A stretch of DNA of 32,624 nt, taken from contig JAGUVT010000079.1 of the NCBI GenBank assembly GCA_020062745.1, forward strand, positions 1 to 32,624, given 5' to 3'. A model generated the notes under the pieces. It had not been told where the DNA came from, ran no database searches, and was given only the letters and a program-made list of their open reading frames with translations. This document shows, piece after piece, positions 2,349 through 22,666 of the stretch; position 1 is the first letter of the stretch, and each line of letters starts with the position of its first letter. The position numbers and the translations under genes are program-made. The DNA comes from Deltaproteobacteria bacterium (lineage in GTDB: Bacteria; Bacillota; Desulfotomaculia; Desulfotomaculales; JAGUVT01).

Positions 2349-3137
2349 GTGGCCGGTAAGCGAAACATCAAGTACCTGCGCCGCCTGGCCGGCCGCCGTT
2401 TCCGGAAAGAAGAAGGAAAATTTCTGATTGAGGGAGTGCGTTTTGTACGGGAAGCTCTGGTTTCCGGCTGGCCGGTAGAACTGGTGGGATACTCTCCGGA
2501 AGTAGCCGAATCCGCGCCGGGCAGGGCTTTATTGGAGATTATTGGTGATCATTGTATTCCCCTGCTGAGGCTGGAAAGGGGCTTGCTTCAAGAGTTAGCC
2601 GGTACTGAAACGCCACAGGGAATTTTGGCGCTGGTAAAACAGCCGGAATGGAAAATAGATGAGGCGCTGCGCCCGAAAGGAGTGCCTCTAATGGTTATAG
2701 TGGATGGTGTTCAGGATCCGGGTAACCTGGGTACTATCATCCGGGCTGCTGACGCAGCCGGGGCTGACGGTGTTTATCTCTTGAAGGGAACGGTGGATCT
2801 TTATAACCCGAAAAGCTTACGGGCTACGATGGGGTCTATTTTTCACCTGCCGGTGATGCAGGATCTTTTGCCGGGACAATTGCTTCCACTGTTGACTAAA
2901 TCAGGTATAAAACTGGTAATAGGCGATCCATATAGTGATCTACCGGTCTATAAAGTTGACTTAACTATTCCTTGTGCGGTAGTTGTTGGCAGTGAAGCCA
3001 GAGGCTCTGTGATAACGGTACCGGGTGATGCAGGAATGAGGGTATGTATTACAATGCCTGGACGGGCGGAATCTTTAAATGTGGCTATGGCCGCGTCTAT
3101 TATTCTTTATGAGGCAGTACGTCAGCGCTCCCTATAA
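2349..3137 (+). CDS. SpoU/TrmH-family RNA methyltransferase, GTG start
   Basis: N-terminal substrate-binding region, then VDGVQDPGNLGTIIRAADAAGADGVYL, VVGSEARG and MPGRAESLNVAMAASIILYEAVRQR (SPOUT motifs). Placement upstream of pheST resembles ysgA of Bacillus. Confidence 0.92.
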   Translation: MAGKRNIKYLRRLAGRRFRKEEGKFLIEGVRFVREALVSGWPVELVGYSPEVAESAPGRALLEIIGDHCIPLLRLERGLLQELAGTETPQGILALVKQPEWKIDEALRPKGVPLMVIVDGVQDPGNLGTIIRAADAAGADGVYLLKGTVDLYNPKSLRATMGSIFHLPVMQDLLPGQLLPLLTKSGIKLVIGDPYSDLPVYKVDLTIPCAVVVGSEARGSVITVPGDAGMRVCITMPGRAESLNVAMAASIILYEAVRQRSL

Positions 3138-3172
3138 GCGTCTTGTATACATTTTATTTCCAATAAACTTTC

Positions 3173-3201
3173 TTGTCATAAACATGGCCTTATGATATAA
3201 T
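3173..3201 (+). promoter_or_regulatory. Candidate sigmaA promoter P1 (TTGTCA-17 bp-TATAAT)
   Basis: -35 TTGTCA at 3173-3178, 17 bp spacer, perfect -10 TATAAT at 3196-3201. Confidence 0.7.
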
Positions 3202-3234
3202 CAGTCCGGAAGGTCCCCAAGAAGTTGAGGAAAG

Positions 3235-3270
3235 GTTGTGGTTAAATGTTTTTAACCGCCGACTTTTTTT
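3235..3270 (+). terminator. Terminator/attenuator-shaped hairpin overlapping the small ORF start
   Basis: GTTGTGGTTAAA (3235-3246) / TTTAACCGCCGAC (3251-3263) pairs about 12 bp with one bulged C, loop TGTT, followed by TTTTTTT (3264-3270). Confidence 0.5.
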
Positions 3271-3338
3271 GGAGGCTATTCGAAGCAACAGGTTCGGTGA
3301 GGGCATATATTCTTTACAGGAGGCTGGCTGTTCACTAA
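3246..3338 (+). CDS. YqzL-like small protein (30 aa), not in the supplied ORF track
   Basis: ATG TTT TTA ACC GCC GAC TTT TTT TGG ... CAC TAA = MFLTADFFWRLFEATGSVRAYILYRRLAVH. The FFWxLFExTGSVxAYxLYRRL pattern resembles the YqzL family. Weak SD (GAGGAAAGG) upstream. Confidence 0.72.
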   Translation: MFLTADFFWRLFEATGSVRAYILYRRLAVH

Positions 3339-3341
3339 GAT
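3313..3341 (+). promoter_or_regulatory. Candidate sigmaA promoter P2 for the pheS T-box leader (TTTACA-17 bp-TAAGAT)
   Basis: -35 TTTACA at 3313-3318, 17 bp spacer, -10 TAAGAT at 3336-3341; lies just before stem I of the T-box. Confidence 0.5.
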
Positions 3342-3349
3342 TATTTAAA

Positions 3350-3625
3350 TAAAACTAAAAGGTGATGAAAGGGAAAAGTAGGTGTGCCGGGTTCAGCAGG
3401 GAGGACAGGTCGGTGACTGAAAGCCTGGCCGGGACGAAGCACTCTGAAATTCACCCTGGAACTGCGACTGAACGTTTGCTAAACAAGTAGGTGACGCCGG
3501 GACTTCTGCCGTTATCCGGAAGGCGGACATTTTTTATGTTCGAAGCAGTTAAGGTAAAAAAGATCTAAACTAGAGGGTGGTACTGCGGATTTCCGTCCCT
3601 GTAGAGGGCGGAATTTTTATTTTTC
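3350..3625 (+). promoter_or_regulatory. T-box leader (tRNA-Phe responsive) of pheST
   Basis: AGTA motif at 3377-3380, specifier TTC (Phe) at 3450-3452 in ctgaaaTTCaccc, T-box core AGGGTGGTACTGCGG at 3574-3588, followed by terminator hairpin CCGTCCCT/AGGGCGG with T-rich tail. Confidence 0.93.
3591..3625 (+). terminator. T-box conditional intrinsic terminator
   Basis: ttCCGtCCCTgtagAGGGCGGaatttttattttt. Confidence 0.85.
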
Positions 3626-3702
3626 AGTATTATCAAGGAACGTTCATAAAAACATTTTTGCCGCGAAAGCTCACAGATTTTTCTTCAAGGAGGAATGGGG
3701 GA

Positions 3703-4725
3703 GTGGAAAAACGACTGCGCGATATTGCCGAAGAGGCCAGACGCAGTCTGGACAGTGTCAGCAGCCTGGCAGAGCTTGACGAAATCAGGGTGCGGTTTTT
3801 AGGTAAAAAAGGAGAACTGACCCGGGTACTTCGGAAGATGGGCATGGTGCCGGCCGAAGAGCGTCCCCGTATCGGTCAACTGGCTAATGAGGTGAGGGAC
3901 GTCATCGAGAAAAGCCTGGCGGGGAGAATTGAGGCTGTAAAAGAGCGGGTTAAAGAAGAACGTCTGCGGCAGGAGGGCATTGATGTAACCCTGCCTGGTT
4001 TGCCTGTGACCCGGGGGAGGAAACATCCGATCACTCTTGTCACTGAGGAAATTGCCGGTTTTTTTCTTGGTCTTGGCTATAGTATTGCCGAGGGGCCTGA
4101 AATAGAATTGGATTATTATAATTTTGAAGCTTTAAACATTCCGAAAGATCACCCGGCCCGGGATATGCAGGATACTTTTTTTATTGAACCCGAAATCCTT
4201 TTACGCACTCATACCTCGCCGGTTCAGGTGCGTGCTATGGAGAAAGCGACCCCGGCTTTGCCGGTGAAGATAATTGCTCCCGGCAGGGTTTACCGCCGTG
4301 ACGACGACGCCACTCATTCCCCCATGTTTCACCAGGTGGAAGGACTGGTGGTTGACCGGCACATTGCTTTGAGTGATCTTAAAGGTACGCTAGATCTTTT
4401 TGCCAGAAAGATGTTCGGGATTGGTATCCATACCAGGTTCCGTCCCAGTTACTTCCCTTTTACCGAACCCAGCCTGGAAGTGGATATTTCCTGTGTTATG
4501 TGTGGCGGAGACGGCTGCCGGGTATGCTCATCTACCGGTTGGCTGGAGATCTTGGGGTCCGGCATGGTTCATCCACGTGTGCTGGAGATGTCTGGCTACA
4601 ATTCGGAAGAAGTGACCGGCTTTGCCTTTGGTCTGGGCGTGGAGCGAATAGCCATGCTGAAGTACGGCATTGACGATATGCGGCTTTTATTTGAAAATGA
4701 TTTGCGCTTTTTACAGCAGTTTTGA
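3703..4725 (+). CDS. pheS: Phenylalanyl-tRNA synthetase alpha subunit (GTG start)
   Basis: [19 protein letters not shown]...[13 protein letters not shown]...[10 protein letters not shown]...[29 protein letters not shown]. The track start at 3577 lies inside the T-box; GTG at 3703 has SD AAGGAGG at 3687-3693. Confidence 0.95.
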
Positions 4726-22577: not shown

Positions 22578-22666
22578 GCCGGAGTGGCGGAACAGGCAGA
22601 CGCAAGGGACTTAAAATCCCTCGGGTGGTTTCACCCGTACCGGTTCAAGTCCGGTCTCCGGCACCA
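22578..22666 (+). tRNA. tRNA-Leu (anticodon UAA), CCA encoded
   Basis: Acceptor GCCGGAG/CTCCGGC + ACCA; anticodon stem-loop AGGGA-CTTAAAA-TCCCT (anticodon at 22612-22614); long variable arm CGGGTGGTTTCACCCG; T-arm ACCGG-TTCAAGT-CCGGT. Confidence 0.97.

Follow-up and report, generated by a model that had tools for sequence, protein, structure and literature searches.

The YqzL protein of the Bacillus subtilis type (PF14006) has ~47 amino acids and the core F/W-x-x-F-x-x-T-G-x-x-x-x-Y. The long form of YqzL is linked to recO/era, and our search of the literature on YqzL function returned no paper. The locus analyzed here encodes a YqzL with the same core, but this version comprises 30 amino acids, is without the C-terminal half and is linked to pheS. 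It lies in a stretch of 32,624 nucleotides, which we term the window. Throughout this bacterial class and beyond, yqzL has an rRNA methylase gene on one side and pheST on the other.

Folded start sites of short genes have been described before. The aapA3 toxin mRNA of Helicobacter pylori forms metastable hairpins at its start site, and a synonymous codon is fixed there since its change alters the hairpin (PMC6733600). Translation initiation in Escherichia coli begins to suffer at a folding energy of about -6 kcal/mol (PMC3155529). At the level of transcription, NusG-dependent pausing in B. subtilis occurs at TTNTTT, and pauses stimulated by NusA have hairpins 10-13 nt upstream (PMC12288461).

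A Short yqzL Gene Ahead of pheST

The gene and its neighbors are located in the window as follows.

2349-3137, plus strand: gene for a SpoU-family rRNA 2'-O-methyltransferase, the conserved upstream neighbor (PF00588, 106.6 bits)
3246-3338, plus strand: yqzL, a short gene encoding the 30-residue peptide MFLTADFFWRLFEATGSVRAYILYRRLAVH (PF14006 match and a 30-codon form in 106 class genomes)
3703-4725, plus strand: pheS, with a GTG start after the Shine-Dalgarno sequence AAGGAGG (PF01409, 347 bits; tblastn matches of relatives begin here)

The original prediction had proposed that a 30-residue YqzL-like gene was missed at 3246-3338, directly ahead of pheST, and both the gene and its position are borne out. 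The window reads an ATG at 3246-3248 and a stop codon at 3336-3338. In a profile search, the isolated peptide matches PF14006 with 28.8 bits, passing the Pfam gathering cut-off of 27 (the score is 26.7 in a six-frame search of the genome), with profile positions 1-21 of 44 aligned rather than the full length. The C-terminal half of the profile is missing in the whole group of short, pheS-linked YqzL sequences, and on the basis of this shared half-profile match we file the window peptide in a short, pheS-linked YqzL-like subgroup. NCBIfam contained no match for the peptide. An AlphaFold model computed from the single sequence (pLDDT 92) has helices at residues 2-15 and 18-29, and the peptide is thus predicted to be a helix-turn-helix hairpin.

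We sampled the class through one order, and the class-level search covered the same genomes as the order-level search. The 30-codon form was found in 106 genomes of this order, 101 by protein search and 5 by a model of the RNA described below; yqzL is intact in those 5 as well. In each of the 101 genomes that were read out, the frame stays open for 30 codons or more and closes at the identical residue; in 2 of them (G111 and G112), the codon exactly at the start position is not a usual start codon. A SpoU methylase gene lies upstream in 89 of the 101 loci, and pheS lies downstream in 98. Residues Thr-15, Gly-16, Ser-17, Tyr-21 and Tyr-24 are invariant in the 101 genomes with their synonymous codons free, and synonymous variation across codons 11-30 is roughly at background level, which shows that the yqzL peptide is translated and is under purifying selection as a protein. 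Some Bacillota genomes encode both a short, pheS-linked yqzL of ~30 codons and a longer yqzL elsewhere that has no link to pheS (locus pairs L123/L149, L130/L150, L151/L152, L153/L154 and L155/L156), suggesting that PF14006 contains two subfamilies.

Two Helices Around the yqzL Start Codon

The region between the promoter and the middle of yqzL contains the following features.

3173-3201, plus strand: sigma-70-type promoter, TTGTCA-N17-TATAAT, with an extended -10 element (11 of 12 matches, TG before the -10 box)
3212-3224, plus strand: 5' strand of helix P1, GGUCCCCAAGAAG, with which the predicted transcript all but begins (complementary to 3265-3277 except for C.A at 3216.3273)
3230-3235, plus strand: Shine-Dalgarno-like GAAAGG, 10 nt before the ATG (near-invariant in relatives)
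3238-3245, plus strand: 5' arm of helix P2, GUGGUUAA, the noncoding spacer between the Shine-Dalgarno sequence and the start codon (fold, pairing statistics and arm-swap test)
3252-3259, plus strand: 3' arm of P2, UUAACCGC, codons 3-5 (synonymous-site conservation)
3265-3277, plus strand: 3' strand of P1, UUUUUUGGAGGCU, which spans codons 7-11 and takes in most of the U-run at 3264-3270 (synonymous conservation, coevolution with the leader)

A similar promoter is conserved among relatives of the class in our alignment, and transcription likely starts near 3208. The leader that follows the promoter-like site is ~38 nt long and carries the GAAAGG at 3230-3235. At the -35 region of the promoter (3168-3201 in the window), most class members have CTTGTTTT or CTTGTCAT; this stretch is more conserved than a plain TTGACA-type box and could contain a further binding site. 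A promoter-like site on the minus strand (ATGACA-17-TAAAAT, 3179-3151, 10 of 12 matches) points into the SpoU methylase gene. A CsrA-type GGA site in the leader was considered and dropped because the GGA is not conserved.

The claim that the start codon sits at a hairpin followed by seven T's holds in the predicted fold of 3230-3268, where A3246 closes the stem over a 4-nt loop (3247-3250); the T's occupy 3264-3270. This fold has an energy of -15.4 kcal/mol (z -4.55), and none of 200 dinucleotide shuffles was equally stable. In the window, P2, the hairpin of the original prediction, gains the inner pair A3246-U3251 and continues downward as GUUG/CGAC, where one C is bulged. We compared the folding energy of the yqzL start with 18 comparable start sites in the window and with 77 pheS starts. 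The segment from -14 to +21 folds with -13.2 kcal/mol, below all 18 window sites (mean -4.0), and averages over loci are -8.1 for yqzL versus -2.2 for pheS, so the yqzL start is more structured than expected by chance. Across 101 sequences, 87% of the P2 cells are paired and 25 are double-change cells; neither value was reached in 500 permutations of the whole 3' arm among genomes. P2 is weak or rearranged in families f2, f7, f8 and f15. Loci from other classes place the start codon in the loop of stems with unrelated sequences, such as GGAGGGG/CCUUUCC, GUGGUCGA/UUGACCGC and UGAUAGG/CCUGUCG.

P1 is absent from the original prediction. Our attention was drawn to it by a leader motif, AAGGTCCCCAAAAAA, that much of the class conserves and that is complementary to the U-run plus GGAGGCT; the 3' strand of P1 comprises the U-run and GGAGGCU. 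The C.A mismatch at 3216/3273 stays at one fixed position in most of the class, and some other classes share it; it is replaced by a U-A pair in most of f8, f12 and f14. Changes in codon 10 are compensated in the leader: CGA occurs with GGUGCC in G070, and AAA occurs with GGUUCCC in G015. As read from the sequence, two f2 genomes (G001 and G002) can instead form a ten-pair P1 of other composition, AAAAGCUUUC/GGAAGCUUUU. Tested locus by locus against dinucleotide shuffles (p<0.05), P1 is significant for 60 of the 101 genomes of the class and, beyond the class, for only 5 of 45 loci; we therefore claim P1 for the class and a few neighbors only.

Coevolution of the Helices and Constraint on Codons 3-10

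Codons 3-10 of yqzL read TTA ACC GCC GAN TTT TTT TGG AGG and are kept far above the codon usage of neighboring genes. TTA at codon 3 is found in 82% of sequences versus 12% expected, ACC in 90% versus 55%, GCC in 83% versus 45%, the two TTT codons in 96% and 98% versus 62% and 61%, and AGG at codon 10 in 89% versus 20%. We conclude from the alignments that these codons are under nucleotide-level selection, and pairing in P1 and P2 accounts for their single synonymous spelling, including AGG.

In an arm-swap test, 5' and 3' arms were exchanged among 43 families and compared by a Wilcoxon test over families. Matched arms pair better than exchanged ones, with p values of 5e-4 and 3e-3 in P2 and of 1.5e-6 and 1.2e-3 in P1; a control stretch of the yqzL open reading frame gave no better matched pairing (p 0.13 and 0.21). 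When nine clades were folded separately and unguided with RNAalifold, seven returned P1 (f1+f16, f4, f5, f9, f10, f8+f12+f14 and f15) and five returned P2 (f1+f16, f4, f5, f9 and f10). RNAalifold on a pooled MAFFT alignment of 45 class members gave no P1/P2 consensus and nothing beyond a trivial 4-bp helix, with misalignment of the A-run as the probable cause, and in a 20-sequence alignment (A2) double changes did not exceed those of shuffles because the sequences are too similar for pair counting to be informative.

A covariance model of the P1/P2 element found it in 107 of 113 genomes with no comparably strong second copy in any of them, and near-identical copies occur in named hosts including Pelotomaculum, Desulfoscipio and Desulfocucumis. 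P1 and P2 thus form a coevolving pair of helices, constrain codons 3-10 at the RNA level and are present in one copy per genome. None of the 4227 Rfam families matched the element, the T-box being the only match near the locus. Pairing is conserved around both the Shine-Dalgarno sequence and the start codon, and we file the element as a candidate structured translation-initiation region.

The T-box of pheST

The pheST genes have a leader of their own downstream of yqzL.

3356-3603, plus strand: T-box leader with the Phe specifier UUC at 3450-3452 as read from the sequence (RF00230, 82.9 bits, E 1.8e-18)
3591-3613, plus strand: terminator-like hairpin of the T-box, then TTTTTATTTT (terminator-like site call)

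The score of the Phe T-box is below the Rfam gathering score (82.9 versus 93), and a default Rfam scan therefore misses it. Of 20 class representatives other than the window, 9 had a detected T-box, and P1/P2 is also present where no T-box was detected. By this distribution, P1/P2 is independent of the T-box and a separate element. A literature search for an open reading frame inside a pheST T-box transcript found none. The mechanical list of open reading frames starts pheS inside the T-box, at GTG 3577 (window 3577-3703); the true start is most likely GTG 3703, where the matches of relatives begin. Elsewhere in the window, 22578-22663 is a tRNA gene (Rfam, 55.9 bits) whose length of 86 nt makes a long variable arm probable.

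Control of Transcription or of Translation

According to the original prediction, P2 and the seven U's form an intrinsic attenuator coupled to initiation: transcription would terminate near 3270 unless a ribosome at 3246 opens P2, and yqzL initiation would in this way gate pheST. A terminator-like site is indeed called at 3238-3259, TTTTTT is present in 92 of 101 class genomes and the promoter is located ~60 nt upstream. The U-run, however, is already explained as the 3' strand of P1, and attenuation leaves both the constraint on codon 10 AGG and the leader CCCC unexplained. P2 is poor in G-C pairs (three of nine). In the window the stem directly abuts the U-run, whereas most relatives have GAA or GAG as codon 6, and their 8-bp stem ends ~4 nt before it. 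Outside the class, TTTTTT is found in only 18 of 45 loci although the start-codon hairpin is often kept; stem and U-run are not conserved as a unit, since many pheS-linked relatives that keep the stem have lost the U-run. Finally, pheST has its own attenuator in the T-box with its Phe specifier. An initiation-coupled attenuator of pheST is not supported as the conserved function, and we regard this reading as unlikely; in vivo, RNA polymerase may still pause or partly terminate at 3264-3272. A Phe leader-peptide attenuator was also rejected because the peptide is conserved along its length, and the hairpin is located at its start rather than among control codons near its end.

A transcription pause is compatible with translational control, and both could act together. 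Here the hairpin and the T7, which fits the NusG motif TTNTTT, would hold RNA polymerase while a ribosome loads on the just-emerged yqzL start. The motif and the hairpin pattern are known from B. subtilis pauses (PMC12288461), and the T7 is conserved within the class; yet P1 alone can account for the T7, any TTTTTT trivially satisfies TTNTTT and conservation of the U-run does not extend beyond the class, making a pause quite unlikely as the explanation. It is very unlikely that the structure serves mRNA stability, as a 5'-terminal hairpin near +1 that protects the T-box/pheST transcript against 5' decay enzymes and overlaps the start codon incidentally: P1 does start a few nucleotides from the predicted transcription start, but shielding accounts neither for the inner stem surrounding the start codon nor for the persistence of P2-like stems with other sequences. 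We dismiss as extremely improbable a DNA operator, in which a repressor would bind the palindrome GGTTAA-N6-TTAACC, a near-perfect inverted repeat in the window with strong sequence conservation in several families, because relatives swap the sequence yet keep the pairing, a second perfect site was not found in the genome, and near matches with at most two mismatches (13 forward and 8 reverse) are not much commoner than for a reversed control pattern (5 and 8).

The P1 fold is favored over pairing of the Shine-Dalgarno sequence with the U-run in 86 of 100 genomes, with a difference of <2 kcal/mol in 32. For the window, the ensemble energy is -25.6 kcal/mol when only P1 is allowed versus -23.5 kcal/mol when only the alternative is allowed, and the single best fold of a longer window stretch has the Shine-Dalgarno sequence paired. 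In the P1 fold, GAAAGG is predicted to be largely unpaired in the internal loop that separates P1 from P2, and the start codon is located in the apical loop, an arrangement that might expose the start site instead of masking it. The ensemble energy of ~-25 kcal/mol is far beyond the ~-6 kcal/mol level of E. coli, and the yqzL start is much more structured than pheS starts; from these two observations we infer control of yqzL translation. We thus consider it reasonably probable that the first ~70 nt of the yqzL/T-box/pheST transcript are a conserved cis-acting structure controlling yqzL translation initiation. P1/P2 probably regulates production of the YqzL protein, and a role mainly as a transcription stop signal is improbable.

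Under translational control, the closed P1/P2 fold would keep yqzL translation low, and a ribosome would load during transcription, before P1 closes. Alternatively, temperature or a protein, which could be YqzL itself, may open P1/P2. A pause at the U-run could give the ribosome more time to load, and pheST would be controlled separately, by the T-box. A more far-reaching proposal is conceivable but doubtful: P1/P2 would represent an undescribed class of regulatory RNA that overlaps a coding region and senses a signal (e.g. YqzL, ribosome availability or temperature), its U-run exchanging partners between the 5' leader (in P1) and the Shine-Dalgarno sequence to switch yqzL translation.

If translational control is confirmed, whatever opens the structure would be a handle on YqzL function, and the arrangement suggests that a transcript stopped at the T-box can still serve as the mRNA of a small protein. 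The locus would also illustrate how a hairpin shaped like a terminator can form the tip of a structure that acts on translation, with its U-run there for pairing.

Comparison with Known Systems

The T-box (RF00230) shares a transcript with P1/P2, lies immediately downstream and controls pheST; it is a separate element. Intrinsic terminators and leader attenuators resemble the window in having a stem-loop and then seven U's. The window hairpin differs from them in its G-C-poor stem, which is usually spaced from the U-run, and in a U-run that pairs elsewhere and is not kept beyond the class. The closest parallel, as a mechanistic analogy only, is the aapA3 mRNA, which like yqzL has hairpins at the start of an open reading frame of ~30 amino acids, alternative pairings of the start region and a synonymous constraint driven by folding (PMC6733600). 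In aapA3, the Shine-Dalgarno sequence itself is paired, and the gene belongs to a toxin-antitoxin locus with an antisense RNA (PMC6733600), whereas yqzL gives no hint of a toxin and its Shine-Dalgarno sequence is predicted to reside mostly in a loop.
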